A DNA stretch of 64,000 nt from Niallia circulans (GTDB lineage Bacteria > Bacillota > Bacilli > Bacillales > Cytobacillaceae): NCBI RefSeq assembly GCF_003726095.1, contig NZ_CP026031.1, positions 2,046,001-2,110,000 on the forward strand, given 5' to 3'. The translations under genes and the position numbers were made by a program. The notes under the pieces were generated by a model, which did not search any database, was not told the DNA's origin, and saw only the letters and a list, made by a program, of their open reading frames with translations. Shown here one piece after another: positions 51,085-64,000 of the stretch (its first letter is position 1; each line of letters opens with the position of its first letter).

Positions 51085-51459
51085 TTATTCATTTTTTCGC
51101 TTTTTTTCCTTTTCTGCTCGATAAAATTCATGGAACATCTTCATCAATGCTCTTTTCTCTATTCTTGAAACATAGCTTCTTGAAATTCCTAATTCTTTTG
51201 CAATTTCTCGTTGTGTTTTTTCCTTCTTTAAATCTAGACCAAACCTGCCGATGATTACTTCTTTTTCTCTTTCATCTAAAACATCAATATATTCCTTTAC
51301 TTTCTCCAGCTCCATATTCAACTGAATCGTATTCACAACATCTTCCGATTCTGATTTCAGCACATCAATAAGACTGATTTCATTCCCCTCTTTATCTTGA
51401 CCAATTGGATCATGCAAGGAAACATCTTTTTTGGTTTTTTTCAAGGCTCTTAGATGCAT
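51085..51459 (-). CDS. sigK: RNA polymerase sigma-K, C-terminal gene segment (spoIIIC)
   Basis: 124 residues from the internal ATG; the sigK coding match extends upstream to about 51471 ([20 protein letters not shown]). It is the 3' half of sigK, with region 4 helix-turn-helix [20 protein letters not shown]. The 5' half with region 2 is not in the window: beyond 51471 the sequence changes to non-sigK DNA running into a recombinase. This is the split state seen in B. subtilis, where spoIVCB and spoIIIC are joined only in the mother cell. It is not translated as a useful protein until excision. Confidence 0.95.
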
Positions 51460-51475
51460 AAGGATTTCGTTCTTG
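51460..51475 (-). other. sigK/skin junction (recombination site)
   Basis: Reading the minus strand, recombinase stop, short spacer, then AACGA (51471-51467) and in-frame sigK codons N-E-I-L-M-H. In B. subtilis SigK the same codons follow Cys-Ile-Glu, and the crossover is in AATGA at this place. Here the upstream codons are Val-Ile-Lys, so identity with sigK ends at the pentamer. The partner site lies beyond the right edge of the window. Confidence 0.8.
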
Positions 51476-51494
51476 ATTACAATAGGGTACTACA

Positions 51495-52994
51495 TTAAAA
51501 GATTTGTATATTTATAGTCTCACTGTCTACAACAATTACTTCTTTAATTACCCTTCTCAATATTTCTTGTTTGTGCTCAAAAGAAAATTCGTTTTTCTTA
51601 TTCTTCATAAACATATTGATCGCAGATTCCAAGGCAACCACACTTGGTTCTTTACCTGCAGCTACTTCATTTTCATTTAACATTTCGTTATACTTATCTT
51701 GTAACTTCTTTTCTTTTATTTGAAGATTTCTTATTTGTTCTTTGATTTCTTCCAGATCCATATCATCATCTTCACTTAGGCTGACAAGTTGGAATAAACG
51801 CTTGCGGCCCTTTTTAGCTTTTTCTATTTCTGCTAAGACGTATTCCATTTCTTCTTTTAAATAGGTCTTTTCATCTTGTTCTCTAAATTCAGCAATTTTC
51901 TTTGGATCGCTGAGTAAATCCACTATAGTGTCCCACACATACTTATTTAATTTGTTTTCGCTTATCTGTTTACCGCATCCCTTTGATTTTGAACCAGCAT
52001 AGTTTTTACGACATGTGTAAATAAAAAAATCTTTACCGTGTGATTTCGTTTTTTTACCTGTCATAGTTCCTCCGCAACGATCACATCTTACTAAACCAGA
52101 TAATAAATAATGATGAAAGCTAACTTTTGTTTGGCGTCTTCTCCCCTGCTCTAATAGGGACTGGGCATATTCAAATTGTTCTAGTGAAATAATTGCAGGT
52201 ATCTCCGTTTTTAACCATTCTTCTTCCGGCCTGATTTTTCCATATTCCACTTTTTCCCCTGCTTGTTTTTTTACATAATTACCAACCGTATCATATTTGT
52301 TCTGATAATAATTACCTGTGTATGCTTCATTCATCAATATTTGACGAACTACTTGCCGATGCCAGACCTTTGCACCACGTTTTGTTGGAATACTTATATC
52401 TGTCAGGTGAAGAGCAATACCATTTATACCCTGAAATTTACTGTTAGGATTGGTGTAATAGTCAAAGATCATCCTGACTACTTTTGCTTCCTCTTCATTT
52501 ATTTCGTATGTTTCTTTCTCTTTATTATAATGGTAGCCATATAAATGATTGTTCTTAACAACCTTGCCAGACTTGGCTTTTCGATATCTTCCTGTCATAG
52601 TATTATGTTTAATCTTAGCTTTATCAAATTCAGAAAAGGCACCCCTAACTTGGAAATACAATTGTCCTTCAGCGTCGTTTTTGTAATCACTTCTGACAAA
52701 CTGTAACTCTACGTTATTCTTCTGCAGTGTCTCCGTAATCATTAGCTGTACTAATAACTTTCTAGATAACCTGTCAGGATCATAACATATCACTTTATGA
52801 ATAAGTCCCTTTTCAATATCGTCTTGTAATCTAGTCAACGCAGGCCTATTCATTATTTCGCCAGTTATTCCTTCATCAACGTATTTTAGGTATTCTTCAT
52901 TTCCAGCTAATTGAATACACTCTTCAATCTGGCCGTTTATGCTGAATCCCTTTAATTGTTCCTCTGTCGACACCCTTGCGTAAATCCCTATCAA
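51495..52994 (-). CDS. spoIVCA: Site-specific serine recombinase, SpoIVCA type
   Basis: 499 residues from a TTG at 52994 (GAGGAG upstream). The resolvase domain (about 1-140) begins IGIYARVSTEEQ with the nucleophile serine, and includes YDPDRLSRK. A recombinase domain (about 150-260, with GAKVWHRQVVRQILMN), a zinc-ribbon (CDRCGG ... C ... C) and a coiled coil follow. Similarity to B. subtilis SpoIVCA is strong throughout. It should excise the element to restore sigK in the mother cell. Its stop is about 25 bases from the crossover pentamer. Confidence 0.93.
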   Translation of the reverse strand: MIGIYARVSTEEQLKGFSINGQIEECIQLAGNEEYLKYVDEGITGEIMNRPALTRLQDDIEKGLIHKVICYDPDRLSRKLLVQLMITETLQKNNVELQFVRSDYKNDAEGQLYFQVRGAFSEFDKAKIKHNTMTGRYRKAKSGKVVKNNHLYGYHYNKEKETYEINEEEAKVVRMIFDYYTNPNSKFQGINGIALHLTDISIPTKRGAKVWHRQVVRQILMNEAYTGNYYQNKYDTVGNYVKKQAGEKVEYGKIRPEEEWLKTEIPAIISLEQFEYAQSLLEQGRRRQTKVSFHHYLLSGLVRCDRCGGTMTGKKTKSHGKDFFIYTCRKNYAGSKSKGCGKQISENKLNKYVWDTIVDLLSDPKKIAEFREQDEKTYLKEEMEYVLAEIEKAKKGRKRLFQLVSLSEDDDMDLEEIKEQIRNLQIKEKKLQDKYNEMLNENEVAAGKEPSVVALESAINMFMKNKKNEFSFEHKQEILRRVIKEVIVVDSETINIQIF

Positions 52995-53091: not shown

Positions 53092-53481
53092 GTTGTCATC
53101 ACCTCATTTATCTATATGAAGTGATGGCTCGTATTTATTAGTCCAAAAAAATTATTATAATTGATCTTCAGCTTTGCTTACTTTGACATCTAGTACTCCC
53201 GATATATAACTCCTCTTATTTAATAATTGATGTAATTCACTGTAAAATGTGTTGAGTTTTCTTATATAACAACAAACGGGGCAGGTTAGTATAAGTGAAA
53301 GTACTCACAAATTTGGTTCATTGTCCTATGAGGGGTGCCATAAAATCATAGTAATATCTACTCATTATGCTATTTTTCCAAATAATTAACATTTCCCAAA
53401 AAGGTATTTAATACCAAAAGTAGAATAAGTACATTGTAACTAACAGTTATAAAAATTATTAAAAAAGGAGTGTTCCCAAAA
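53092..53481. other. Leader region between recombinase unit and secreted protein gene
   Basis: 390 bases. Contains the recombinase-unit promoter (not identified) on the minus strand and, near the right end, the leader of the gene at 53482: TGTAAC (53435-53440) and GTTATA (53446-53451). A closely similar arrangement precedes the paralogous gene at 58831. Confidence 0.5.
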
Positions 53482-53934
53482 ATGAAAATTAAGCAACTAG
53501 TTCTGAGTGCTACTGCAGCAATAGCTATTGTAGGTGGTTCTGCTATTCCAACTTTTGCTGCATCAGGAAATACTGAAAGCCAACTAACTTCAGCAAGTAA
53601 CGAACTATCTACACTATATGTGGATTTAAGTGCATATGCAGATTCATCAAGTGTTACTATAAGTCCGCCTGAATGGAAAGCGGTGTCAGGAGCTGTGGTT
53701 GGTAAAGGACAGTATGGTAAAATAAAGCTTTATTCAACTGGGATTGCAGGTTTATCTGTGCAAGAAAAGATCGGAAATAACTGGGTCACTATGGGCGGTA
53801 CTGGTTTAAGCTTGTTCGAAGAGGGTGGCGAAGCTACACTAGACTATTGGATGGAAAAAGGTAAGGAGTATAGGATCGAGATAATCTCAGGTACTGCGCA
53901 AAAAACAACTGGAACTATAAGAAATTCTCTATAA
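53482..53934 (+). CDS. Small secreted protein, paralogue A
   Basis: 150 residues from the ATG at 53482, with AAGGAG upstream. A clear signal peptide (MKIKQLVLSATAAIAIVGG, cleavage after TFA-A near 29) leads to NTESQL and then a beta-rich part with an LYVDLSAYADSSSVTISPPEW stretch and no cysteines. No known domain recognised. Signal peptide, the TESQ start of the mature chain and the leader resemble the gene at 58831. Its transcript may have lost its terminator to the IS200 copy that follows. Confidence 0.7.
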   Translation: MKIKQLVLSATAAIAIVGGSAIPTFAASGNTESQLTSASNELSTLYVDLSAYADSSSVTISPPEWKAVSGAVVGKGQYGKIKLYSTGIAGLSVQEKIGNNWVTMGGTGLSLFEEGGEATLDYWMEKGKEYRIEIISGTAQKTTGTIRNSL

Positions 53935-54001
53935 AAATACACTCATTGAATCGATTTCAAACTTATTTCCCATGTACTTAAACTTAACGGGTTCGTTTGT
54001 T

Positions 54002-54707
54002 AAGTAAGTATCCGCCGGTAGAACCGGCGGTTTTAATTTCGCCCTATAAGGGCACTTTACCAACGAAGCCCCTAAAGGGACCTCTAAATTGACCGCCAAC
54101 CGTTTACTCTCCCTACTTATCTTTAAATGGATCGACGTATTCTCGTTTGCTCATATTATCTCGCAAACGGTCCTCTGCTTCTTGCTCTCGTATATACTTT
54201 GCAATTGTTTTTTCGTTTAATCCAACCGTACTTACGTAATATCCTTTCGCCCAAAACGTTCGATTTCCATGATTATATTTTAAATTTGCATGTCTATCAT
54301 GGATCATCAATGAACTTTTACCTTTTAAATATCCCATGAAATACGAAACAGACATTTTCGGTGGTATTTTTACCAGCATGTGTATATGATCTGGCATGGC
54401 ATGTGCTTCCATTATTTCTACATCTTTCATTTCACATAGTTTTCTCAATATAGCACCTATATCTTTTCTTAATTTCCCATATACTACTTTCCTTCTGTAT
54501 TTGGGAATAAATACGATATGATACTTACAATTCCATCTTGTATGTGATAAACTATTGTCGCTCGACATGAGCAGAACTCCTCTCGTTATTTGAAGTTGGT
54601 TTGACGGCCATCTTCTATTATAACGATTGGAGTTTTTTTCTAATACGACTCTACAAGTTTTATTTTCACACAGGCAGAGCCTGTGGTTTAAAAAGAGTAA
54701 ATTAAAA
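54002..54707 (-). mobile_element. IS200-type element, copy 1
   Basis: 706 bp identical to 59737-60442 (constant offset 5735). A tnpA gene only; no tnpB. One end carries the palindrome CCGCCGGT-AGA-ACCGGCGG (54012-54030), the other CACAGGC-AGA-GCCTGTG (54669-54685), the stem-loops that single-strand IS200/IS605 transposases cut at. No target duplication, as expected for this family. Confidence 0.9.
54113..54568 (-). CDS. tnpA: IS200-family transposase TnpA (Y1 HUH), copy 1
   Basis: 151 residues, the normal length. The HUH motif is HIHMLVKIP near residue 62 and the catalytic tyrosine lies in IAKYIREQE near residue 126. Y1 enzymes move single-stranded DNA through the replication fork, recognising the end hairpins. 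Intact; identical to the copy at 59848. Confidence 0.95.
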   Translation of the reverse strand: MSSDNSLSHTRWNCKYHIVFIPKYRRKVVYGKLRKDIGAILRKLCEMKDVEIMEAHAMPDHIHMLVKIPPKMSVSYFMGYLKGKSSLMIHDRHANLKYNHGNRTFWAKGYYVSTVGLNEKTIAKYIREQEAEDRLRDNMSKREYVDPFKDK

Positions 54708-54739
54708 GAAAAGCCTCCTCTATTGAGTAGGCTTTTCTT
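54708..54739 (+). terminator. Terminator hairpin next to IS200 copy 1
   Basis: Arms GAAAAGCCT / AGGCTTTTC with TT tail, immediately right of the IS. It probably belonged to the secreted-protein gene at 53482 and was displaced 700 bp by the insertion. Confidence 0.65.
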
Positions 54740-54839
54740 ATGCGTGCAGCTTATAGTGTTTAGTAATGTAGGAGGCAGCTATATAGAATATACAATTATC
54801 TCCTATTATTTTGGTCTATAAATCCCTCTACCCTAAAGT

Positions 54840-54991
54840 ATGATAAGTGATCAGAATTTAGAAAACAAACAAGAAATTGATACAGCAAGTGAAATTCGTA
54901 AATCAAAGAATTGCTGGATGATGGGATTATTACTGTAGAATAATTTGAGAATAAAAAATATCTTTTAGACTTTTATAAAAACATCCCGTAA
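54840..54991 (+). pseudogene. SHOCT-domain remnant
   Basis: Not visible as one frame. ATG at 54840 gives MISDQNLENKQEIDTASEIRK; after a -1 shift the sequence reads KELLDDGIITVE, then a TAA in place of a sense codon, then FENKKYLLDFYKNIP. Together this is a classical SHOCT domain (IRKFKELLDDGIIT pattern). Restoring one T in CGTAAATC would give IRKFKELL. One deletion and one nonsense change therefore killed the gene. Confidence 0.75.
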
Positions 54992-55017
54992 GATGGGGCA
55001 CAGTTCACATACGATTC

Positions 55018-55139
55018 AGGTCTTTTTTATCATTTCTTTTTGTCTATTTTTGTCGAATCTATAGTATTATTTCCCTTTAAACTATAAAATGTATAGTGCT
55101 AAATAGATATAATTTCATAGTTATATAGGGGGAAACTAC
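55018..55139 (+). promoter_or_regulatory. Leader copy A with tandem Spo0A-box-like sites
   Basis: TTTGTCTAT (55039-55047) and TTTGTCGAA (55049-55057) are one helical turn apart; the second matches the Spo0A box consensus exactly. A possible -10 TATTAT follows (55065-55070). The whole stretch of about 115 bases recurs before the next gene (55510-55628). Confidence 0.65.
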
Positions 55140-55481
55140 ATGAAAGTTTGGGTTGCTGTTCTAAGTATACTTGGTGGAATTAGCGGTATTATCTCAGGAA
55201 TACTTGTTACTGCTGGAGGTGCTTTTACTGAATCTGCTGATATGGCCAATGACGGAGCTTCTGTATTTTGGTTGAGTATTTTAGCTATATTTGTAGGATT
55301 TTTATCATGGGTACCAAAATCAATTGTTAGAAAAGTATGTGGTGCTTTATTAATCATCTATTCATTCTATGGATTCGTAATCAATGGATTATTCTTTACA
55401 CTAGCATTCATCTTTTTACTAATTGCTGGATGCCTTGCATTATTCATGAAACCTAAATCAACAAAGACGGTTAATGCTTAA
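55140..55481 (+). CDS. Small four-helix membrane protein, DUF4064-like
   Basis: 113 residues with a GGGGGAAA site. Four hydrophobic segments (about 4-25, 42-58, 66-80, 83-106) with GGISGIISGIL near the start. It resembles the DUF4064 family of small Bacillus membrane proteins of unknown role. It shares a duplicated leader with the Ltp-type gene downstream, so both are probably expressed together. Confidence 0.65.
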   Translation: MKVWVAVLSILGGISGIISGILVTAGGAFTESADMANDGASVFWLSILAIFVGFLSWVPKSIVRKVCGALLIIYSFYGFVINGLFFTLAFIFLLIAGCLALFMKPKSTKTVNA

Positions 55482-55519
55482 TAAAAAAGACCCTTCTCAA
55501 ACGAGTTGGGTCTTTTTTA
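55482..55519 (+). terminator. Terminator after the DUF4064-like gene
   Basis: Arms AAAAAAGACCC / GGGTCTTTTTT right after the stop, with a T-run; it overlaps the start of leader copy B. Confidence 0.88.
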
Positions 55520-55628
55520 TTAATTTCCTCTTTGTCTATTTTTGTCGAATCTATAGTATTATTTTCTCTATAAATGTAAAATACTTGTTGCTAGATAGAT
55601 AAATATAGGAAATTAGGGGGAAATCATC
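55510..55628 (+). promoter_or_regulatory. Leader copy B with tandem Spo0A-box-like sites
   Basis: TTTGTCTAT (55531-55539) and TTTGTCGAA (55541-55549), followed by the same CTATAGTATTATTT stretch as in copy A, then a TAAATGTAAAAT / GCTAGATAGAT region that is similar but diverged, and an AGGGGGAAA site before the TTG start. Confidence 0.65.
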
Positions 55629-56297
55629 TTGGCAAAAAAAGAAAAAGTAAAAAAACCATTTTATAAAAAGTGGTGGGTTTGGTTATTAGCGGTTATCCTT
55701 ATCGGATCCTTAGCAAATATGGGCGAAGATAATGATCAAACCGCTCCAACTACAGACGAAAAGACAAGTGAAGAAGTAGCTTCAACAAATGATAGTAGTG
55801 AAAAAGCTGGAAAAGAAGAAGCAGAGAAGAAAGCAGCAGAAAAAAAGGCTGCAACTGAGGAAGCCGAAAAGAAAAAGGCTGAAGAAGAGAAAAAAGCCAA
55901 AGAGGAAGAAGAAAAGAAAGCTAAAGAAGAAGCAGAAAAGGCAAAAGCTGAAGCTGAGAAGAAAGCTGAAGAAGAAGCAGCAGAGAAGAAAGCTGCGGCC
56001 GCTGGAGTTGAAGGTGCTAATGCTTTAAATGCTGCTAGAGGATATATCGACTACACTTCTTTCAGTCATAAAGGACTTGCTGATCAATTATCATTTGAAG
56101 GCTATTCACAAGACTCAATTAACTATGCTATGGAAATAATGGACACGGAAGTAGATTGGAACGAACAAGCAGAGCTGACAGCACAAAGCTATCTGGATTA
56201 CACAAGTTTTTCACAGTCTGGACTTGTTGACCAACTAGTATTTGATGGATTTACTAATGAACAGGCACAGCACGGAGCAGACTTTGCATTTCAATAA
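55629..56297 (+). CDS. Ltp-family surface protein (superinfection-exclusion type)
   Basis: 222 residues from a TTG. An N-terminal membrane anchor (WWVWLLAVILIGSLANMG, about 14-31; no lipobox Cys) precedes a lysine/glutamate/alanine-rich helical stalk (about 55-125). Two tandem copies of the Ltp repeat follow: ALNAARGYIDYTSFSHKGLADQL and AQSYLDYTSFSQSGLVDQL. Ltp of streptococcal phage TP-J34 blocks DNA injection by related phages at the surface. A similar role here is inference. It is intact and has its own terminator and leader. Confidence 0.82.
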   Translation: MAKKEKVKKPFYKKWWVWLLAVILIGSLANMGEDNDQTAPTTDEKTSEEVASTNDSSEKAGKEEAEKKAAEKKAATEEAEKKKAEEEKKAKEEEEKKAKEEAEKAKAEAEKKAEEEAAEKKAAAAGVEGANALNAARGYIDYTSFSHKGLADQLSFEGYSQDSINYAMEIMDTEVDWNEQAELTAQSYLDYTSFSQSGLVDQLVFDGFTNEQAQHGADFAFQ

Positions 56298-56304
56298 TAA
56301 TAGT

Positions 56305-56338
56305 AATCCCCACTTACAAAGAGCGGGGATTTTTTTTG
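56305..56338 (+). terminator. Terminator after the Ltp gene
   Basis: Arms AATCCCC / GGGGATT followed by eight T, just past the stop. Confidence 0.9.
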
Positions 56339-56380
56339 TGCATCGTTTATAAAGTTCCAATGACTAAGTCAAATGTTTTT

Positions 56381-56614
56381 TCAAAAAGGCTTATGCATGC
56401 AATAATTCCCCTGCTCTTTTTTGAAGGAAGCAGCTAAAATGGAATCAACTTTAAAGATACGTGGCTGTTTCCTCGCTAAGCAATATGCCTTTATATATGT
56501 TTCGGTTACTCTATTTACTAAAATTGATCTTTGAGACACAGAATTATCTTTCTTAATATAGATACTCTCAATTGGTTTACCTTCCACAAATGCTCTTTTT
56601 AGTTGCTTTATCAT
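56381..56614 (-). CDS. Small WYL-domain-like protein
   Basis: 77 residues with GGAGGT upstream. The core RSILVNRVTETYIKAYCLARKQPRIFKVDSILAA matches the beta-barrel WYL fold (ITxxxIKAYCxLRxxxRxFKxD). There is no HTH, so it would be a stand-alone effector domain, as found beside yolD/uvrX genes of Bacillus prophages. Divergent from the yolD remnant, with two LexA boxes between. Confidence 0.72.
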   Translation of the reverse strand: MIKQLKRAFVEGKPIESIYIKKDNSVSQRSILVNRVTETYIKAYCLARKQPRIFKVDSILAASFKKEQGNYCMHKPF

Positions 56615-56646
56615 CTTAAGCTACCTCCTTTTCCAATTATTATATA

Positions 56647-56690
56647 AGAACTTTAGTTCGAAAATAACATTAAAATCGAACGATTGTTCT
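56647..56690. promoter_or_regulatory. Two LexA (DinR) boxes in a symmetric divergent promoter
   Basis: AGAAC-TTTA-GTTCG (56647-56660, complement CGAAC-TAAA-GTTCT) and CGAAC-GATT-GTTCT (56677-56690) match the Bacillus SOS box CGAAC-N4-GTTC. Both are flanked on the outside by TATATAAT on the strand leading away, so the entire block is a near-palindrome that can control both divergent genes. Confidence 0.85.
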
Positions 56691-56726
56691 TATATAATAA
56701 TCCTATCAAAAAGGAGTTAGGGATAT

Positions 56727-57054
56727 TTAAAAGACCGTGATACTAAGAAGTGGGTTGCAATTATGTTACCAGAGCATGTTGCAGGTGTAAAAGAAGTTAT
56801 TGTGAGAAATAATAAGATTGAGAAGCCTGGAACTAGACGAAGATAAGTGGAGTGATATAGACGTATTGATCCATGAAGCAATGGAATATAATCAGCTTCT
56901 TAAATACAGTCTATATAATAATGGATACATAAACACTTTGATTGGCCGTACTGTTTATATTGACTATCTTAATAATCAGTTACGTATACAAGATGAAAAA
57001 GATTATATACATTACGTATCATTTAGAAAATTAGTTGATGTAGAAAAAGCATAA
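56727..57054 (+). pseudogene. YolD-like gene, frameshifted
   Basis: The first part reads KDRDTKKWVAIMLPEHVAGVKE then KIEKP in one frame; the second reads LELDEDKWSDIDVLIHEAMEY in the next frame (open from 56818). One extra G in CCTGGAACT breaks PELDEDK. Upstream of KDRD the codon is TTA where an ATG/TTG start would be, although a GGAG lies 10 bases before. YolD genes accompany SOS-induced Y-family polymerases (UvrX); no such polymerase follows here. Confidence 0.8.
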
Positions 57055-57068
57055 ACGGAGCAGAAATA

Positions 57069-57431
57069 ATGAGTAGATTATCTGAAGACGATAGAAACAT
57101 ATTTGAAAATGCTATATACTTACCGATGCTTCTTACAGTACTTGATCGTGATTTAAAAGTTGCTAATGCAGCTCCCTTTAAGCTTAGGCAAGTCTATATA
57201 AACTTAATCGAACACACGATGAAACAGGTACAAAAAGATATGCGTGAAAACAATAATAAGATGTATAAACGTAGATGGAAGTTAGTAAAAGGTGAGAATG
57301 ATGGTTATTTTACCGAGTATAATTTCTATTTCAATGGTTTTCACGAAGTGCATAGATATTTTAATGACAACTTACGGAATAACACAGTAAAGCTACTTAA
57401 TTATTATTTTTTGCATCGTCATTTAGATTGA
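57069..57431 (+). CDS. Conserved prophage-type protein of unknown function (YhjD-like?)
   Basis: 120 residues, with GGAG 8 bases before the ATG, in line behind the yolD remnant. Soluble, mostly helical; conserved-looking RLSEDDRNIFENAIYLPMLL and FTEYNFYFNGFHEVHRYFN. It resembles a family of about 120-residue proteins found in Bacillus chromosomes and prophages (I think of YhjD), but I am not certain. It may be SOS-coexpressed from the LexA-box promoter. Confidence 0.6.
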   Translation: MSRLSEDDRNIFENAIYLPMLLTVLDRDLKVANAAPFKLRQVYINLIEHTMKQVQKDMRENNNKMYKRRWKLVKGENDGYFTEYNFYFNGFHEVHRYFNDNLRNNTVKLLNYYFLHRHLD

Positions 57432-57490
57432 TCTTTTACAGGAAATTGTTCTAAGAAGGGCCTCGTTATAAAGGGACACGTATAGGGGAA

Positions 57491-57525
57491 ATTAACCGCC
57501 GGTTCTACCGGCGGTTGCTTACTTT
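57491..57525 (-). repeat. Orphan end palindrome of the IS200-type element
   Basis: AACCGCCGGT-TCT-ACCGGCGGTT followed by GCTTACTT, the exact complement of the palindrome and near flank at the left ends of the two IS200 copies, here in the opposite orientation and without tnpA. It lies just past the stop of the membrane-protein gene at 57528 and could now act as its terminator. Confidence 0.75.
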
Positions 57526-57527
57526 CT

Positions 57528-57932
57528 CTATCTTTTAATCTTCTTTTTGTTTCTAATGCTAGTGAAAATTAGTGAACCAACACTGAATATAACCCCTAAC
57601 AACAAATTATAGAGGAATTCTAAATTATTTGTATTAGAGACACCAAATAAAATAGAAATCAATATTCCAAATAAAAATCCAGCGAACATCACATACAATT
57701 TACTATGATTTTTAAAAATTATAATTTGTTCTAAAATCATGCTAAGTATAATAACAATTACACTTAAATAAATAACCTGATAAAAAATTATTGTTATTAT
57801 ATATTCTGTACCAAATTGGTAAATAAAAACAAGAGAAAAAACGATTATATAATATACAATACTAATCAGATACGCCTTAATAAAATTCATATTATCAACT
57901 TTCTCTTTAAAATTGGATTTTAAATGAAGCAT
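57528..57932 (-). CDS. Four-helix membrane protein, unrecognised
   Basis: 134 residues from 57932, or 120 from the ATG at 57890 (MNFIKAYLISIVYY), which has a weak AGAAAG site. Four membrane segments (about 17-38, 44-68, 73-97, 105-126 of the long form) with a basic end RNKKKIKR. No family recognised. Directly upstream is a 36-codon ORF (57910-58020) that overlaps it; together they look like the tail of a larger gene plus a small membrane protein. Confidence 0.55.
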   Translation of the reverse strand: MLHLKSNFKEKVDNMNFIKAYLISIVYYIIVFSLVFIYQFGTEYIITIIFYQVIYLSVIVIILSMILEQIIIFKNHSKLYVMFAGFLFGILISILFGVSNTNNLEFLYNLLLGVIFSVGSLIFTSIRNKKKIKR

Positions 57933-58020
57933 TTGGCATTACTGGTACTAAATACTCAAATCCTTTATTTTTAGCTTGGAAAAGAGTTGCTCGCATATCA
58001 GTATTAACCTGATACATAAA
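57910..58020 (-). CDS. Short ORF, possible truncated C-terminus
   Basis: 36 codons from an ATG at 58020: MYQVNTDMRATLFQAKNKGF, then EYLVPVMPNASFKIQF. It has no ribosome site and reads like the end of a longer protein whose front is lost. It overlaps the start of the gene at 57528 by 23 bases on the same strand. Origin unknown. Confidence 0.3.
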
Positions 58021-58202
58021 TGGCCACATCACAAGCTAAAAAACTTAAAATTAAAACAATACGAGGTGTGGCAATAGCAACAATAATTGGTGTAGCTATT
58101 GATTTTGCTCTAAACTATAGTAATCTAGGAAGTATAATAGCAAATGTTATTGAAAGTAAAGATTGGTATAAAAAGAATGGATGGATTGATATCACAAAAT
58201 GA
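58020..58202 (+). CDS. Short ORF with one membrane segment, coupled to next gene
   Basis: 60 residues; an amphipathic basic start (MATSQAKKLKIKTIRG), a hydrophobic stretch (VAIATIIGVAIDFAL) and a polar end with ESKDWYKKNGWIDITK. No clear ribosome site, so it may be a fragment of a larger exported protein. Its TGA overlaps the ATG of the next gene (58199-58202), so the two are translationally coupled. Unknown function. Confidence 0.45.
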   Translation: MATSQAKKLKIKTIRGVAIATIIGVAIDFALNYSNLGSIIANVIESKDWYKKNGWIDITK

Positions 58203-58381
58203 GATATTTAGGATATTTATTATACTTCATTATTGCGACTATTTTATTTTATTACACAAGTGAATTTGTATCAAATCAAGAAGATGGTTCTGTGGGACAA
58301 TACGCTGGCAGAATTATACGTGTGTTGATTCTCCTTTTGACTGGATACTTAGTAGCTCTTAAATTTAAAAATAGAGCATAA
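58199..58381 (+). CDS. Tiny two-helix membrane protein
   Basis: 60 residues with two membrane segments (about 3-22 and 39-55) separated by an acidic loop SNQEDGSVGQYAGR. Overlaps the previous ORF by ATGA. The size and coupling resemble immunity proteins that follow membrane-active peptides or polymorphic-toxin tails, but no known family is recognised. Confidence 0.5.
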   Translation: MRYLGYLLYFIIATILFYYTSEFVSNQEDGSVGQYAGRIIRVLILLLTGYLVALKFKNRA

Positions 58382-58403
58382 GTCATCAATGGATTTTATT
58401 AAA

Positions 58404-58454
58404 AGTATCAGCATGAATGCTGTGTAAATAACATTCATGCTGATACTTTTTTTC
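58404..58454 (+). terminator. Strong terminator after the coupled pair
   Basis: 16-base arms AGTATCAGCATGAATG / CATTCATGCTGATACT, followed by seven T. Confidence 0.93.
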
Positions 58455-58830
58455 ATAGGGTACATTATTGAAACTCCATCCCCGTTACTTTATGCGGATT
58501 ATTTGTTTTGGATAAATAAGGTCTTTTTTTTGATACTTGGATTTAACTTCAAAATAAATATATTTTCTACTAATGTTCTATATCCTTAAAAAAATCATTC
58601 CTCATTCCTCCTTAATTAGTAAATAATTTCTCATGTTCTGGAAAAATCCTAGAGTATATATGAATAAATTTAGTCTGTTTGTATTTTTATTACTTATTAT
58701 GTGATATTTGTAACTACGCCTTAAGAATTTCCACATATTATTAACAATATTTTACAAGGAAATTTTATAGAAAAAGAGAATTAGTATAGTGTAACGTTAC
58801 AAAAATATAATTATTAAGGAGTGTTTAGGA
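58455..58830. other. AT-rich leader region before secreted paralogue B
   Basis: No gene seen. Near the right end lies the perfect palindrome TGTAACGTTACA (58790-58801) after TATAGT, then an AAGGAGTGTT site; the same order of elements precedes paralogue A at 53482. Confidence 0.5.
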
Positions 58831-59097
58831 ATGATCGTAAAAAAAATCGCAATTAGCGCCATTGCAGCACTAGCTTTTGCAGGTCCAGCCATTCCATCCT
58901 TTGCTTCAGCGTCAGCAATCACTGAAAGTCAACCAGAAAAATCAGTTGTAGCTCCTTTTGCATTAGTCGATAATTATGTTTACAAAACAGAAAATGTATT
59001 TGCAAATTCTTATACAGAAAACGGTATTACTTGGTATCTTAAAGGTATTACTTATTCTGGTGGATATTATATTGGGCATTATCAAGCTAATATCTAA
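58831..59097 (+). CDS. Small secreted protein, paralogue B
   Basis: 88 residues with AAGGAGTGTTTAGGA upstream. Signal peptide MIVKKIAISAIAALAFAGPAIP with probable cleavage after SFA-S; the mature chain starts SASAITESQPEK and ends in an aromatic-rich part with WYLKGITYSGGYYIGHYQ. The sequence before and after the start resembles the gene at 53482, although the mature parts are not obviously alike. Small, secreted and Tyr/Gly-rich like extracellular peptides; function unknown. Confidence 0.7.
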   Translation: MIVKKIAISAIAALAFAGPAIPSFASASAITESQPEKSVVAPFALVDNYVYKTENVFANSYTENGITWYLKGITYSGGYYIGHYQANI

Positions 59098-59141
59098 TTT
59101 TGTTCAATAATAATAAAAAGCTTATTAAACATAAGGTTTCG

Positions 59142-59169
59142 GGCTGTCGCAATTTGGCAGCCTTTTTTT
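59142..59169 (+). terminator. Terminator after secreted paralogue B
   Basis: Arms GGCTG / CAGCC followed by TTTTTTT. Confidence 0.8.
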
Positions 59170-59200
59170 ATTTTATAGGTCTTTAAGAACATTTAGTATT

Positions 59201-59228
59201 AAAAAGCCCCTACTCCGAAGAACAGGGC
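59201..59228 (-). terminator. Terminator after the Big_2 gene remnant
   Basis: Minus strand GCCCT ... AGGGGC followed by TTTTTA, 8 bases beyond the stop of the remnant. Confidence 0.65.
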
Positions 59229-59235
59229 ACCCATA

Positions 59236-59736
59236 TTAATATTCATCTATTACAAAACTTACAATCTCATCAAACATTATATATTCTGTTCTTGATTTGA
59301 TATTCCCAGTTGTTACATTTAGTTTAAATTCATAATATGGCTTACCTTCTCCTTTTTTATCTAACCAAGCTATGAAATTATTAATCTCAGTTCTAGATAA
59401 GTCATATTCATGCAAGTCACCAGTAGTGGTAGTTAATTTAAGGATACCTTTATTACCTTCTACTTCTGCTTCATTAACTGTCACTTCAGTTGTTGCTTTT
59501 AGATTACTACCGTCAGTAGTTTATGCTGTAATAGTGACCTTCCCGGGACTTTTTCCAATTACATTTCCATTATCATCTACAGTCGCAATTTCAGGATTAC
59601 TACTTGTCCATTTAATGGTTTTATTAGTTGCGTTCTCTGGTTCAATTGTTACCACTAACGATTCGTACGCCCATGCTGCCCCTTCTCCTCCGGTTGCAGT
59701 TCCGTTCAAGGATATTTCAATAAGATATAAAAGACC
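59236..59736 (-). pseudogene. Big_2-domain secreted protein, 3' remnant
   Basis: The frame is open from the IS200 boundary at 59736 (GLLYLIEISLNGTATGGEG), carries a Big_2 Ig-like domain (IEPENATNKTIKWTSSNPEI then ATVDDNGNVIGKSPGKVTITA), hits an in-frame TAA at 59521-59523 and continues TTDGSNLKATTEVTVNEAEV to a C-terminal part ending in DEIVSFVIDEY. All parts are in the same frame, so one nonsense codon splits it. The 5' part has been lost at the IS copy. It was probably a large exported surface protein. Confidence 0.82.
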
Positions 59737-60442
59737 AAGTAAGTATCCGCCGGTAGAACCGGCGGTTTTAATTTCGCCCTATAAGGGCACTTTACCAACG
59801 AAGCCCCTAAAGGGACCTCTAAATTGACCGCCAACCGTTTACTCTCCCTACTTATCTTTAAATGGATCGACGTATTCTCGTTTGCTCATATTATCTCGCA
59901 AACGGTCCTCTGCTTCTTGCTCTCGTATATACTTTGCAATTGTTTTTTCGTTTAATCCAACCGTACTTACGTAATATCCTTTCGCCCAAAACGTTCGATT
60001 TCCATGATTATATTTTAAATTTGCATGTCTATCATGGATCATCAATGAACTTTTACCTTTTAAATATCCCATGAAATACGAAACAGACATTTTCGGTGGT
60101 ATTTTTACCAGCATGTGTATATGATCTGGCATGGCATGTGCTTCCATTATTTCTACATCTTTCATTTCACATAGTTTTCTCAATATAGCACCTATATCTT
60201 TTCTTAATTTCCCATATACTACTTTCCTTCTGTATTTGGGAATAAATACGATATGATACTTACAATTCCATCTTGTATGTGATAAACTATTGTCGCTCGA
60301 CATGAGCAGAACTCCTCTCGTTATTTGAAGTTGGTTTGACGGCCATCTTCTATTATAACGATTGGAGTTTTTTTCTAATACGACTCTACAAGTTTTATTT
60401 TCACACAGGCAGAGCCTGTGGTTTAAAAAGAGTAAATTAAAA
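59737..60442 (-). mobile_element. IS200-type element, copy 2
   Basis: Identical over 706 bp to 54002-54707, same orientation. Its left flank is the middle of a Big_2 gene and its right flank the end of a holin gene, so the insertion was accompanied or followed by loss of DNA. Same end hairpins (59747-59765 and 60404-60420). Confidence 0.9.
59848..60303 (-). CDS. tnpA: IS200-family transposase TnpA (Y1 HUH), copy 2
   Basis: 151 residues, identical in protein and DNA to the copy at 54113, with HUH (HIHMLV) and Tyr (IAKYIREQE) intact. Identity suggests very recent duplication or gene conversion. Confidence 0.95.
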   Translation of the reverse strand: MSSDNSLSHTRWNCKYHIVFIPKYRRKVVYGKLRKDIGAILRKLCEMKDVEIMEAHAMPDHIHMLVKIPPKMSVSYFMGYLKGKSSLMIHDRHANLKYNHGNRTFWAKGYYVSTVGLNEKTIAKYIREQEAEDRLRDNMSKREYVDPFKDK

Positions 60443-60451
60443 TAAGGACAA

Positions 60452-60648
60452 TCAACTTTTTTTTAAAGCCTCTTGTCCTTTTGCGCTATTTAATTCTTTA
60501 TTTACAAATGCACATAATAATCCGGTCACATAATCGGCAAGCATGACTACTAACAGTACTGATACAGCTAGACCAAACCCCCCACCATTACTGACCAAAT
60601 CCCTCCAATAACACCTATTGCAAAACTTAATCCATGTTGTTTTTCCAT
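60452..60648 (-). pseudogene. Phage holin, frameshifted and truncated
   Basis: From the ATG at 60648: MEKQHGLSFAIGVIGGIWSV, MVGG, then a stop soon after a run of six G. In the next frame it continues FGLAVSVLLVVMLADYVTGL, LCAFVNKELNSAKGQEALKK and stops 10 bases before the IS200 copy. MLADYVTGLLCAFVNKELNS is the signature of the toxin-secretion/phage-lysis holin family. About half of the usual 130-140 residues remain. Too broken to appear as one frame. Confidence 0.8.
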
Positions 60649-60781
60649 TTTCCCCTTATCCTTTCATAGCATAATAAAAAGCCATCGTTTGATGACTTTT
60701 AGCCAATATATAGTTTTAACTAAAACAACTTACTCATTTTTCGTTTCTAAATCATGGACTTACCTTCTTAAAAGGGATAAA

Positions 60782-60807
60782 AAAGAGCCCCCATAATAAG
60801 GACTCTT
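60782..60807 (-). terminator. Terminator after the LamG-RCC1 gene
   Basis: Minus strand AAGAGTCC ... GGGGGCTCTT followed by TTTT, 25 bases past the stop at 60832. Confidence 0.7.
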
Positions 60808-60831
60808 GGACTCTTTAAACCTATAAATTTA

Positions 60832-61887
60832 TTAATCTTCGCTAACGATTTCGGATATTTCAGATTCTACTTCTACTGGACTCTTAATACTACCTATTTC
60901 ATCAGATAATACCCCAGAAGAATTATCTCCCCAACCATATACTTTTCCACTTTCACCTAATGCAATTACAAAATTTTGTCCAACAGATATATCTGTAACT
61001 TTTTCTGGAAGATTTATTTTCTCTTTTTTAGACAATGTTCTTTTACTTGTATCACCTAAACCTAGTTGACCATAGCTATTTTCTCCCCATGCATAAACTT
61101 CACCATTTGAAGTTAGTTTGTAGAAAGATTTATTACCTACATACAATTTTGACTTCGAAGTATGCTGTTCTTTACTTGGTTCAATTACATCGTTAAAAAT
61201 TTGAATACTATCTAATTGTCCTTCAAAGTAATAACTAGTAGCAACATCTTTAGTGACAGCTTTTCTACCAATTCGTAAATTACTTGTCCCTTTTTCTACG
61301 GCTTTTCTTGCATTGCCAGTTATATCAGGTTTCGAGAAATCATCAATATAGATTTTTACCGCATCACTTTTTGTAGTTCCATCCCAAACGACCAGGATAT
61401 CATGCCATTCACCATCATTTACTGATTTGTTAGATATAATATCAAAATTCCATGTGGAATTCTTATTCCCATTTGAATTAACATATTTTATCTTCCCATT
61501 ATTTAAAAACACCGAAGTACCAAAATCTTCAGTCCCATTTGTTTGCGATAATATAGCCGCAAGTTCTTTTTTACTACTAGTCTTAATTTTAAATTTTATA
61601 CTTTGCTTATCACTAGGAATGACAGGTTTATTGAAATCAATATAATCACTAGTCCCATTAAAACTTCTAACTTTTCCCTCTGGACCATCGACTAACTTAG
61701 TTCCATTTGCTGTACCTTTATATGAACCTTTTGAATCAGTGACTGTTGTTCCATTATCATTGTCAAAATTATACTCTGCAATAGGCGTTGGATTCTCTGT
61801 TGTTGCTGAGATATGAGAAGAACCTTCTGTTAATACAAAAGAAACTACTAATACCAGTGCTAAAAATAAAGCTAAAATCTTTTTCAC
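60832..61887 (-). CDS. Secreted LamG / RCC1-repeat protein
   Basis: 351 residues. Signal peptide (about 1-28, MKKILALFLALVLVVSFVL), a LamG/concanavalin-like domain (about 38-235, with VRSFNGTSDYIDF and WHDILVVWDG) and then two RCC1 propeller repeats (VYAWGENSYGQLGLGDTSKR and VYGWGDNSSGVL). RCC1 propellers need about seven blades, so two suggest a truncated protein, or one that completes the fold in trans. The Big_2 remnant beyond the IS may once have belonged to the same or a sister gene (inference). Confidence 0.75.
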   Translation of the reverse strand: MKKILALFLALVLVVSFVLTEGSSHISATTENPTPIAEYNFDNDNGTTVTDSKGSYKGTANGTKLVDGPEGKVRSFNGTSDYIDFNKPVIPSDKQSIKFKIKTSSKKELAAILSQTNGTEDFGTSVFLNNGKIKYVNSNGNKNSTWNFDIISNKSVNDGEWHDILVVWDGTTKSDAVKIYIDDFSKPDITGNARKAVEKGTSNLRIGRKAVTKDVATSYYFEGQLDSIQIFNDVIEPSKEQHTSKSKLYVGNKSFYKLTSNGEVYAWGENSYGQLGLGDTSKRTLSKKEKINLPEKVTDISVGQNFVIALGESGKVYGWGDNSSGVLSDEIGSIKSPVEVESEISEIVSED

Positions 61888-62061
61888 AATATTTCCCCAC
61901 TTTCAATATGTAATTATTCCCAAATAGATTAACATTGTAAAGGTAGTTTGTCTAGTTCTTTAAACCTGTTACTTTTCACCTAAAACTCATGTGAATATTG
62001 TAATAATTACAAAAAAGACTCCTCCTTGTGGAAGAATCTTTAAATATATTTATTAATGCTA

Positions 62062-62169
62062 TCATTTCAGAAAATTATATGCTTCAAAAATATAATTTTC
62101 GTTACCTTTATCTTTCTTTTGCTTTTGTTTTTTTCTTTTCAATAAATCATTTATAAATGTTGCTTTCAT
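62062..62169 (-). CDS. Very small basic ORF
   Basis: 35 residues from an ATG at 62169 with a good AGAGGTGATATTT site: MKATFINDLLKRKKQKQKKD then KGNENYIFEAYNFLK. Too short for recognition; the site is the only support. Confidence 0.35.
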   Translation of the reverse strand: MKATFINDLLKRKKQKQKKDKGNENYIFEAYNFLK

Positions 62170-62229
62170 AAATATCACCTCTACTAGTTATATTACATAC
62201 CTATTGGTTTGTTATCCCTCGTTTTCATT

Positions 62230-62571
62230 TTAGCTATATTTTGCTCCAATTGTTATTTTACTATTTCCACATATCCCTTCCAGACATAATAAAAAGTCTA
62301 TTCGGCTTCTTTTTCCTACAAGTGATTCAATCACTTTCTCTATGACTTTATCTTTCAAACTTTCTATGTCGCTGCTAATCGGTGAATATTCCTCAAATGT
62401 AAGTGGGATATACCCGTTTAACTTTATTGTTTGATGTTCATGTGTTGCAAAAAAGTTAACATTACCCCCGCTAACTGGAATGTTTTTGATATCAGATAAT
62501 TGTTTTACTGTTTTCACTATCCCCATTTTCTGCAACACACCCTTTACTTTGCTCATAAGTGATTTAAACAT
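62230..62571 (-). CDS. Portal-like N-terminus fused to an unrelated tail
   Basis: 113 residues. The first 34 (MFKSLMSKVKGVLQKMGIVK, then TVKQLSDIKNIPV) resemble the start of SPP1-type phage portal proteins, and the gene comes right after the large terminase as portals do. The remaining 80 residues, with KLNGYIPLTFEEYSP, do not. True portals have over 450 residues. Most likely a deletion joined the portal start to the end of another gene. The open frame may still be translated. Confidence 0.45.
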   Translation of the reverse strand: MFKSLMSKVKGVLQKMGIVKTVKQLSDIKNIPVSGGNVNFFATHEHQTIKLNGYIPLTFEEYSPISSDIESLKDKVIEKVIESLVGKRSRIDFLLCLEGICGNSKITIGAKYS

Positions 62572-62585
62572 TTAATCACCGCCTA

Positions 62586-63511
62586 CTAAAATTTAAGTCC
62601 TAACTTTTTCAAATTGTCGTTAACAAAGTACTGGAATCCATCGCAAGTATGGTCATCTACTTTAATAACTTTCGGATCATCTGTCTTTTTAGACTCAGCA
62701 TCCCATTGATACTTTTTATGCTCTTCAATAAATATCTTGTTATTATCTGTGTCCAAATAAAAAAACCTACCCTGTGCGAGCAAGTCTTGAACATTATCAA
62801 TCATATCGATTTTCTTTTTCTTAGCAACCCGATTTAACCGAAGGTGATAATCTTTGTATATTTGATTTCTTAATGCTCCTTCTGCGCTATCAATGGTCAT
62901 TTTATCGATAGGACGATGATATTCTTTTCGAATCTTATCAAGCCATTCTTTATAATCCTTTGATAGTTCACTTGGTGCTTTCTTTTCCACTTTGTTATCT
63001 GGACTATAATACCAGGTATCTAACAAAATAACGTTTCTCCGCTTAGTAAAACCAAAAGCTAAGTGAGTTGTAGCAGATACTTGGTGCCCTGTATCGGATG
63101 CTGTACTAATCATTAAGATATCATCATTAGTTGGTAATTCGCTTAACTTTTTGAAATGGTTCATGTTGTATACCATTTATCATCACAGCCATAGAAATAA
63201 AAGGCTGTATTTGTTGCCTTATGCTTTATCATTAGTAGACTCTTACCAAAGTAAAATTCCTCTTCTACTTTTAGCATATAAATGGCCCATTTTATTTGTT
63301 CGTAAATAGAAGTTGATAAGTACTTACCGACTTTTCTTAAACATACAACATTGCCTAATGGATCATTAAGGAAATCCGTAACAAGCTTTAAGCTAATTAC
63401 AGACGATTTCATGGAAGAACGTCCGCCTTTAGCAATTATATGAGACTGTTCGGCTAACCATAAGGAGTAGAAGTTCTTATTGATGAGGTCGGTTATCTTA
63501 ATTAGATTCAT
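62586..63511 (-). pseudogene. Phage terminase large subunit, central part deleted
   Basis: The front frame (63511-63161) has the PBSX/XtmB-type start NFYSLWLAEQSHIIAKGGRSSMKSS with Walker A, ending at FYFYGCDD. The back frame (63176-62586) carries the nuclease-domain part, with LLDTWYYSPDN, KMTIDSAEGALR and DDHTCDGFQYFVND. Together about 310 residues against about 430 in the family. The missing part includes Walker B and the coupling motif, and the join shifts the frame. It cannot package DNA. Confidence 0.88.
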
Positions 63512-64000
63512 CTTCTAATACCTTCCTCATTTCATCCTCGTTGGTTATGATAACTGTTTTAGATGAATCTATAAAATCAATGTAGTTCACTTCTACCATG
63601 ATTGGATTGCCATCTTCATCTTCCAAAGGACCAAAGGCTCCCATCGCTTGACTTCTTTTTTACCGAATTTTGCAAAGTCTGTTGCATCTGCGAAAGCTAT
63701 ATCAATGTATTTTTGAAGTACATCTTTAGCACCTAGCTTCAACTCATTCATTTGTTCTTCTTTTATTCTATCAATTTCTCTTGCAATCTTAGGATTTCTT
63801 AGATGGCGGTGCCCTTCTACCATAGCAGTCGAATAAGCACAACCGTAAGCCTTTTGATAGGCCTTAGTAGCATTAAAGTATTTAAGATGATAAATGCAAA
63901 AAAGCCTTTGTTTGTCCGTTAGTTCGTCCGAGTTAATAAAGGTTCCTGTTTTTCACTATTCTGTTTTCTCTGCAGCTTTTGCTGTTTGTTATTCTTTTGT
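63498..64000 (-). pseudogene. Phage terminase small subunit, frameshifted (runs off the window)
   Basis: Three frames are needed. QKLQRKQNSEKQEP reads near the right edge; SDELTDKQRLFCIYHLKYFN, then GYRKLRNP-like HRHLRNPKIAREIDR and YIDIAFADATDFAKFGKKEV in a second; MGAFGPLEDEDGNP to RKVLEDESN in a third. The last stop overlaps the ATG of the large terminase, as in phages. PBSX XtmA-like. At least two frameshifts. Confidence 0.82.

Follow-up and report, generated by a model that had tools for sequence, protein, structure and literature searches.

A skin-type interruption of sigK in Niallia circulans that has probably changed from an excising into an inverting switch

The locus analyzed here raises the question of how sigK is made complete, as the 64,000-nt window (the whole stretch of DNA under analysis, G000:C1:2046001-2110000, from a genome that is one contig of 5,175,203 bp) contains a 3′ half of the gene next to a recombinase gene. 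In the portions of the literature available to us, programmed sigK rearrangement has so far been described as an excision of the interrupting DNA, which is then lost with the mother cell. In Bacillus subtilis, excision of skin is carried out by SpoIVCA together with Skr, a 64-aa ORF that has a 101-nt overlap with spoIVCA, according to the accessible part of PMC6957869. The initial annotation described the 3′ half as the only sigK half in the window, ending at AACGA, with a SpoIVCA-type recombinase at this end that is co-oriented with sigK and stops about 25 bp short of the crossover; all of this agrees with our analysis (Table 1). The ORF part of the 3′ half matched profile positions 117-234 of 235 of NCBIfam NF004471 and 115-227 of 227 of TIGR02846, and, being a half gene, it alone scores under the whole-protein cut-offs of both profiles. 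Its similarity to sigK breaks off at AACGA, and since the core is preceded by AAC, the AACGA reading was right. The recombinase carries the three large serine recombinase (LSR) domains Resolvase, Recombinase and Zn_ribbon_recom.

Table 1. Features at the two sigK crossover sites and in the adjoining element; positions refer to the window except where genome positions are indicated.
Feature	Position	Strand	Basis
sigK 3′ half (spoIIIC-type), to its stop codon	51085..51468 (ORF part 51085-51459)	-	profile matches, rejoined frame
Crossover core GAAATCCTTAT, 3′-half site	51458..51468	-	start at 51468, AAC before it
Element arm CCCTATTGTAA, 3′-half site	51477..51487	-	pattern search and site comparison
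SpoIVCA-type large serine recombinase, 499 aa, TTG start	51495..52994	-	domains, alignment
Candidate Skr-like recombination directionality factor, 55 aa	52924..53091	-	overlaps recombinase start in another frame
Content of defective-looking prophage-like element within the window	53470..64000		domain and PHROG matches
Arm counterpart TTACAATAGGG, 5′-half site	genome 2125933-2125943	+	pattern search and site comparison

The 5′ half lies 15.6 kb past the end of the window, at genome position 2125605-2125946 on the plus strand, as found by a TIGR02846 search of the genome, and the 3′ half lies on the minus strand. A second copy of the core starts at genome position 2125923, also on the plus strand and thus inverted relative to the 3′-half core at 2097468, with 28,455 bp between the two. 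The initial annotation was correct in that a skin-type element splits sigK and has its recombinase at the 3′-half end, but the two halves are on opposite strands, which is not an excisable layout, and the proposed one-way switch with a circle that takes the recombinase gene away does not apply to the assembled sequence. A second complete sigK accompanied by a missing 5′ half had been named as the contrary outcome; the 5′ half is present, and the TIGR02846 search of the whole 5.18 Mb genome revealed no second complete sigK. The best full-length match, at 666730-667362, was rejected as an intact sigK, as spoIIGA-like and sigG-like ORFs are found on either side; from these neighbors we take it to be sigE. 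The two halves, the short core that they have in common, and the lack of an intact copy in the genome are as expected for skin, whereas the direct order of halves that is needed for the excision of a circle is not found. The inverted orientation of the recombination sites is instead what is seen in phase-variation inversion switches. Such switches have a small Hin/Gin-type invertase, whereas the protein here is an LSR of 499 aa with Recombinase and zinc-ribbon domains. Skin recombination belongs to the mother cell and is controlled by sigma-E and SpoIIID, and phase-variation switches flip reversibly while cells grow.

Where two sites are inverted, conservative recombination turns the DNA between them around and cannot excise it. 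With the crossover sites in this orientation, a segment of about 28.5 kb would be flipped and no circle would be set free. The SpoIVCA-type recombinase adjoining a half gene would be in line with an ordinary excision of a circle, as first proposed, but the sites are inverted in the assembled sequence, in which the geometry of the sigK halves is firm, and we consider this explanation extremely improbable. When the flanks are joined at the cores, a complete SigK of 239 aa results that differs in 2 residues from the intact SigK of the congener G001. The assembly shows a single orientation of the segment; the flipped form was not seen in any read or genome examined, with one assembly representing the species.

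The sequences at the 5′-half and 3′-half sites are GAGAATGAAATCCTTATTACAATAGGG and CCCTATTGTAATCAAGAACGAAATCCTTATGCAT, respectively. The 11-bp element arms at the two cores are mirror images of each other, and, in our own reading of both sites, the dyad of the implied attP would sit on the GA of AACGA. Two of the four exact genomic copies of the 3′-half arm word fall exactly on the two crossover sites; a reversed control pattern occurs three times in the genome of 5.18 Mb, so that the word as such cannot be called rare. A pattern search of viral contigs for an attP-like junction gave no matches.

The recombinase residues R7, S9, and R75, which we take to be catalytic, are unchanged across five aligned relatives. 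Among the best 8 of 548 records, the top-ranked phage relative was a protein of Alicyclobacillus phage MMB025 with 39.4% identity over the full length, and a comparison with solved structures gave six matches, all of them distant LSRs (best YokA, E 1.3e-20). According to the available parts of the literature, the B. subtilis recombinase gene adjoins the 5′ half, whereas here it adjoins the 3′ half; this is not unusual, as the same arrangement is found, for example, in Pseudoneobacillus rhizosphaerae (G027). As in skin, an ORF of the Skr type overlaps the recombinase start, and its assignment as a directionality factor (RDF) is putative, based on its position and on a resemblance of sequence seen by eye. 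An ORF of 40-119 aa precedes and overlaps the recombinase start in 13 of 13 loci examined, with 55 aa in this genome and 64 aa, counted from an internal ATG, in B. tequilensis. Twelve of the 13 look alike by eye and the ORF of Bacillus sp. DNRA2 (L121) is weakly similar, in a comparison that has no chance control and in which the recombinase gene constrains the sequence of the overlap. By-eye inspection of the region 5′ of the Skr-like ORF for promoter motifs gave nothing claimable.

Arms, frames, recombinase, and Skr-like ORF all look intact, and we regard it as highly probable that this skin-type sigK interruption, formerly an excision switch, has become one that acts by inversion. The inverted attL and attR sites would be recombined in the mother cell by the recombinase together with the directionality factor; the 28.5-kb segment would thereby be turned around, sigK would be restored, and attP would remain at the opposite end. 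The 5′ half together with its upstream DNA and fbp would be moved beside the 3′ half, and no DNA would leave. Since nothing is lost in an inversion, a return flip through attP × attB would in principle need no protein other than the recombinase, whereas after an excision the circle would have to re-integrate. From the intact parts, the recurrence described below, and the published enzyme behavior, we infer that the flip takes place in sporulating mother cells. The Clostridioides difficile recombinase CD1231 alone handles attP × attB, including an inversion between engineered inverted sites, and requires an RDF for attL × attR recombination (PMC5025042). Together with the Skr-like ORF, this behavior suggests that the direction control for an inversion switch seems to be present here. 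The published CD1231 inversion is an attP × attB reaction, and inverted attL × attR sites with an RDF are not among the reactions described in the accessible part of that paper (PMC5025042).

The comparison with known systems, for which the available parts of PMC2901330, PMC5154133, PMC5553647, and PMC10747680 were also used, points to a mixture of features. With B. subtilis skin, as far as described in the accessible part of PMC6957869, the locus shares the split sigK, the SpoIVCA-type LSR, the small RDF ORF over its start, and a defective prophage content, but skin is excised and the element with its inverted sites would stay here. The LSR and RDF logic is also that of skinCd of C. difficile (CD1231, CD1234; PMC5025042), but, in the accessible part of this source, natural skinCd is excised and its inversion was a plasmid assay only. 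The gin, vfbin, yin, and SPbeta/spsM elements likewise interrupt a sporulation gene that is rejoined during sporulation, but the mechanism, where it is named in the available parts of the sources, is excision. Inverted recombination sites and the flipping of DNA are shared with the C. difficile flagellar switch, but there, as far as covered by the available text, a sequence upstream of an operon is reversibly inverted, whereas here the target would be a coding sequence, put back together by an integrase/RDF pair and, presumably, in the mother cell alone. No report of a natural reconstitution of sigK by inversion was found in the literature searched, which was partly accessible and had most subscription papers and all preprints outside its scope.

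How the inverted arrangement may have come about is suggested by the comparison within the genus, in which the recombinase was found in 2 of 13 genomes. The congeners examined have an intact sigK or, in one case, a layout that fits direct halves. In G001 and G008, the intact gene lies in the order pepF..sigK-fbp-mcc, and relative to this order the block of fbp and sigK 5′ half is turned around in our genome. N. circulans NBRC 13626 (G012), which has about 95% DNA identity to this genome in long aligned blocks, carries on one contig the 5′ half followed by fbp, a cargo block, a recombinase remnant, and mcc; its 3′ half is at the end of another contig, and the two element arms stand at the ends of two further contigs. 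Its split sigK fits the ordinary direct layout, which no single contig spans, and on this basis the inversion, of about 12 kb including the 5′ half, would have taken place in the lineage analyzed here. The inverted block comprises a 45-bp element arm, the 5′ half, fbp, and the cargo up to the recombinase remnant. Homologous recombination between the IS200 copies was rejected as a cause of the inversion, as the two copies have the same orientation within the element and the breakpoints found map to other places, and so was an action of the recombinase at the core, as the breakpoint is by eye about 45 bp beyond it. Relative to NBRC 13626, the two sigK halves have 19 synonymous and 0 nonsynonymous changes and the recombinase has 31 and 6, respectively, and these counts also cover the time preceding the inversion. 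It was also observed that the four NBRC 13626 contigs C6, C20, C29, and C47 all end at the sigK crossover; the sample may have contained both recombined and unrecombined DNA, a reading that we do not rely on, as the ends are without k-mer overlap.

The direct fit of this closest split relative, together with the single assembly of the species, could mean that the inversion is an artefact of assembly or strain and that the true chromosome has a direct skin layout from which a circle is excised. One breakpoint does lie in a recombinase/Skr remnant, and a similar stretch of about 120 bp occurs elsewhere in the element, nearer the recombinase. However, the genome is a single contig of 5.18 Mb, the longest stretch that the two breakpoint regions have in common is 26 bp at 81%, about 90 bp of the remnant that is kept in NBRC 13626 are gone at one breakpoint (by eye), and inverted halves are found in three other genera, in two of which a relative was used to check the turned half. 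We therefore regard such an artefact as very unlikely and continue with the inversion switch as the preferred reading.

Inverted halves were counted by hand in 4 of 76 split sigK-like genes that have both halves on one contig, the other 72 being direct. The four are this genome (G000), Virgibacillus proomii N4 (G061), Bacillus sp. WMMC1349 (G091), and Shimazuella soli (G079). The 72 direct cases stem from a 61-genome set (2), tblastn loci (25), a 33-genome set (19), and a second draw (26), and the sampling went through the recombinase except in the 61-genome set. For the tblastn loci, a contig scan with recombinase alignment kept 80 of 105 relatives and sigK-like halves were searched in those 80 loci; the 33 genomes of the TIGR02846 search for sigK halves were among recombinase-bearing relatives. 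The second draw comprised 398 genomes of the class, 47 of them with the recombinase, of which the 46 besides this genome were searched for sigK; 10 of these share coordinates with genomes of the 33-genome set, and duplicates were removed. The 25 direct tblastn loci are counted on tblastn evidence, and some of them may encode other sigma factors, since the match to SigK is only about 41-68% for most of the metagenome loci and for Sporosarcina L114. Also counted as direct are G333 and G377, though each has a full-length sigK-like gene as well. Left out of the 76 were 18 of the 80 tblastn loci, where the second half was not in reach; 11 of the 33 TIGR02846 genomes and 10 of the 36 new second-draw genomes, which had split contigs, one half, or an intact gene only; and, from the 61-genome set, 54 that were over the cut-off, G012 and G024 with halves on different contigs, and G022 and G038 with a match start at 60-62.

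A complete two-half sigK was read in three of the four inverted cases; in S. soli, the last of three interruptions alone is inverted. In WMMC1349, the turned block is 758 bp long and consists of the 3′ half and about 350 bp of the element, with B. changyiensis, whose own halves are on different contigs, as breakpoint reference. In V. proomii, the 3′ half is turned relative to the downstream flank, with the direct Oceanobacillus indicireducens as reference. It is thus the 5′ side that is turned in Niallia versus the 3′ half in the other two, and these differing sides and the differing sizes of the turned blocks argue for separate inversion events in Niallia, V. proomii, and WMMC1349. The rejoined SigK frames of WMMC1349 and V. 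proomii are 241 and 234 aa long and 90% and 73% identical to the SigK of G001, respectively; the mirror-image arms are clear by eye in WMMC1349 and less exact in V. proomii. The S. soli frame rejoins at its one inverted junction, the sole junction that was joined.

These frames also bear on the possibility that the inversion broke the switch, with sigK no longer rebuilt and the strain asporogenous or blocked late. The conserved halves could simply reflect a recent inversion, but the halves, core, arms, recombinase, and Skr-like ORF are all intact, the inverted pieces rejoin in frame in all four genera (in Shimazuella with the inverted junction alone joined), and a skin recombinase works on inverted sites in a plasmid assay (PMC5025042), which makes such a dead end unlikely in our view.

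If true, the inversion version rebuilds sigK without DNA loss and uncouples the departure of the element from the rejoining of the gene, two ideas that are usually fused. Nature would thereby offer a test of whether it matters that the sporulation switch runs one way, and an integrase/RDF pair would be seen to drift into an invertible switch via one small inversion. Much more tentatively, inversion-type sigK switches might arise repeatedly because they are safer, as there would be no loss by premature excision and a misfire in a vegetative cell could be reset by the recombinase alone (attP × attB), so that the split state would be a reversible, self-restoring developmental switch; we offer this as a speculation that may well be wrong.

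Several further observations were made on split sigK genes. In S. soli, sigK is in four pieces that correspond to query residues 1-69, 64-123, 110-145, and 141-236 (L166:8431-13403, L167:8000-13927), with recombinase-like matches in all three gaps, partial in the last one, and with the last piece inverted. In 16 of the 46 second-draw genomes (G104, G166, G186, G196, G200, G220, G232, G248, G320, G337, G354, G381, G382, G448, G466, and G475), the last sigK piece begins at model position 134-140, which may point to a second interruption that leaves a short piece in the middle. G267, G333, G364, G377, G419, and G428 have a full-length sigK-like gene (2-8 to 225-227) and one or two half genes.

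The element itself reaches on to about genome position 2113.8 kb, and its part in the window encodes two IS200-type transposases, a superinfection-exclusion-like protein (PHROG match), an RCC1/laminin-G protein, and terminase pieces. As the genes for the small and large terminase subunits are fragmented (window 62586-63823), the prophage-like element looks defective. The two copies of the IS200-type transposase gene, at window 54113-54568 and 59848-60303, have identical translations. Remnants of a second recombinase copy, C-terminal as well as Skr/N-terminal (L024:11565-11798, L024:3759-3941, L058:12090-12252), border the cargo block of AraC, two Gfo/Idh, ThuA, and MerR genes beside fbp, and this block with its flanking recombinase remnants is present both in this genome and in N. 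circulans NBRC 13626.
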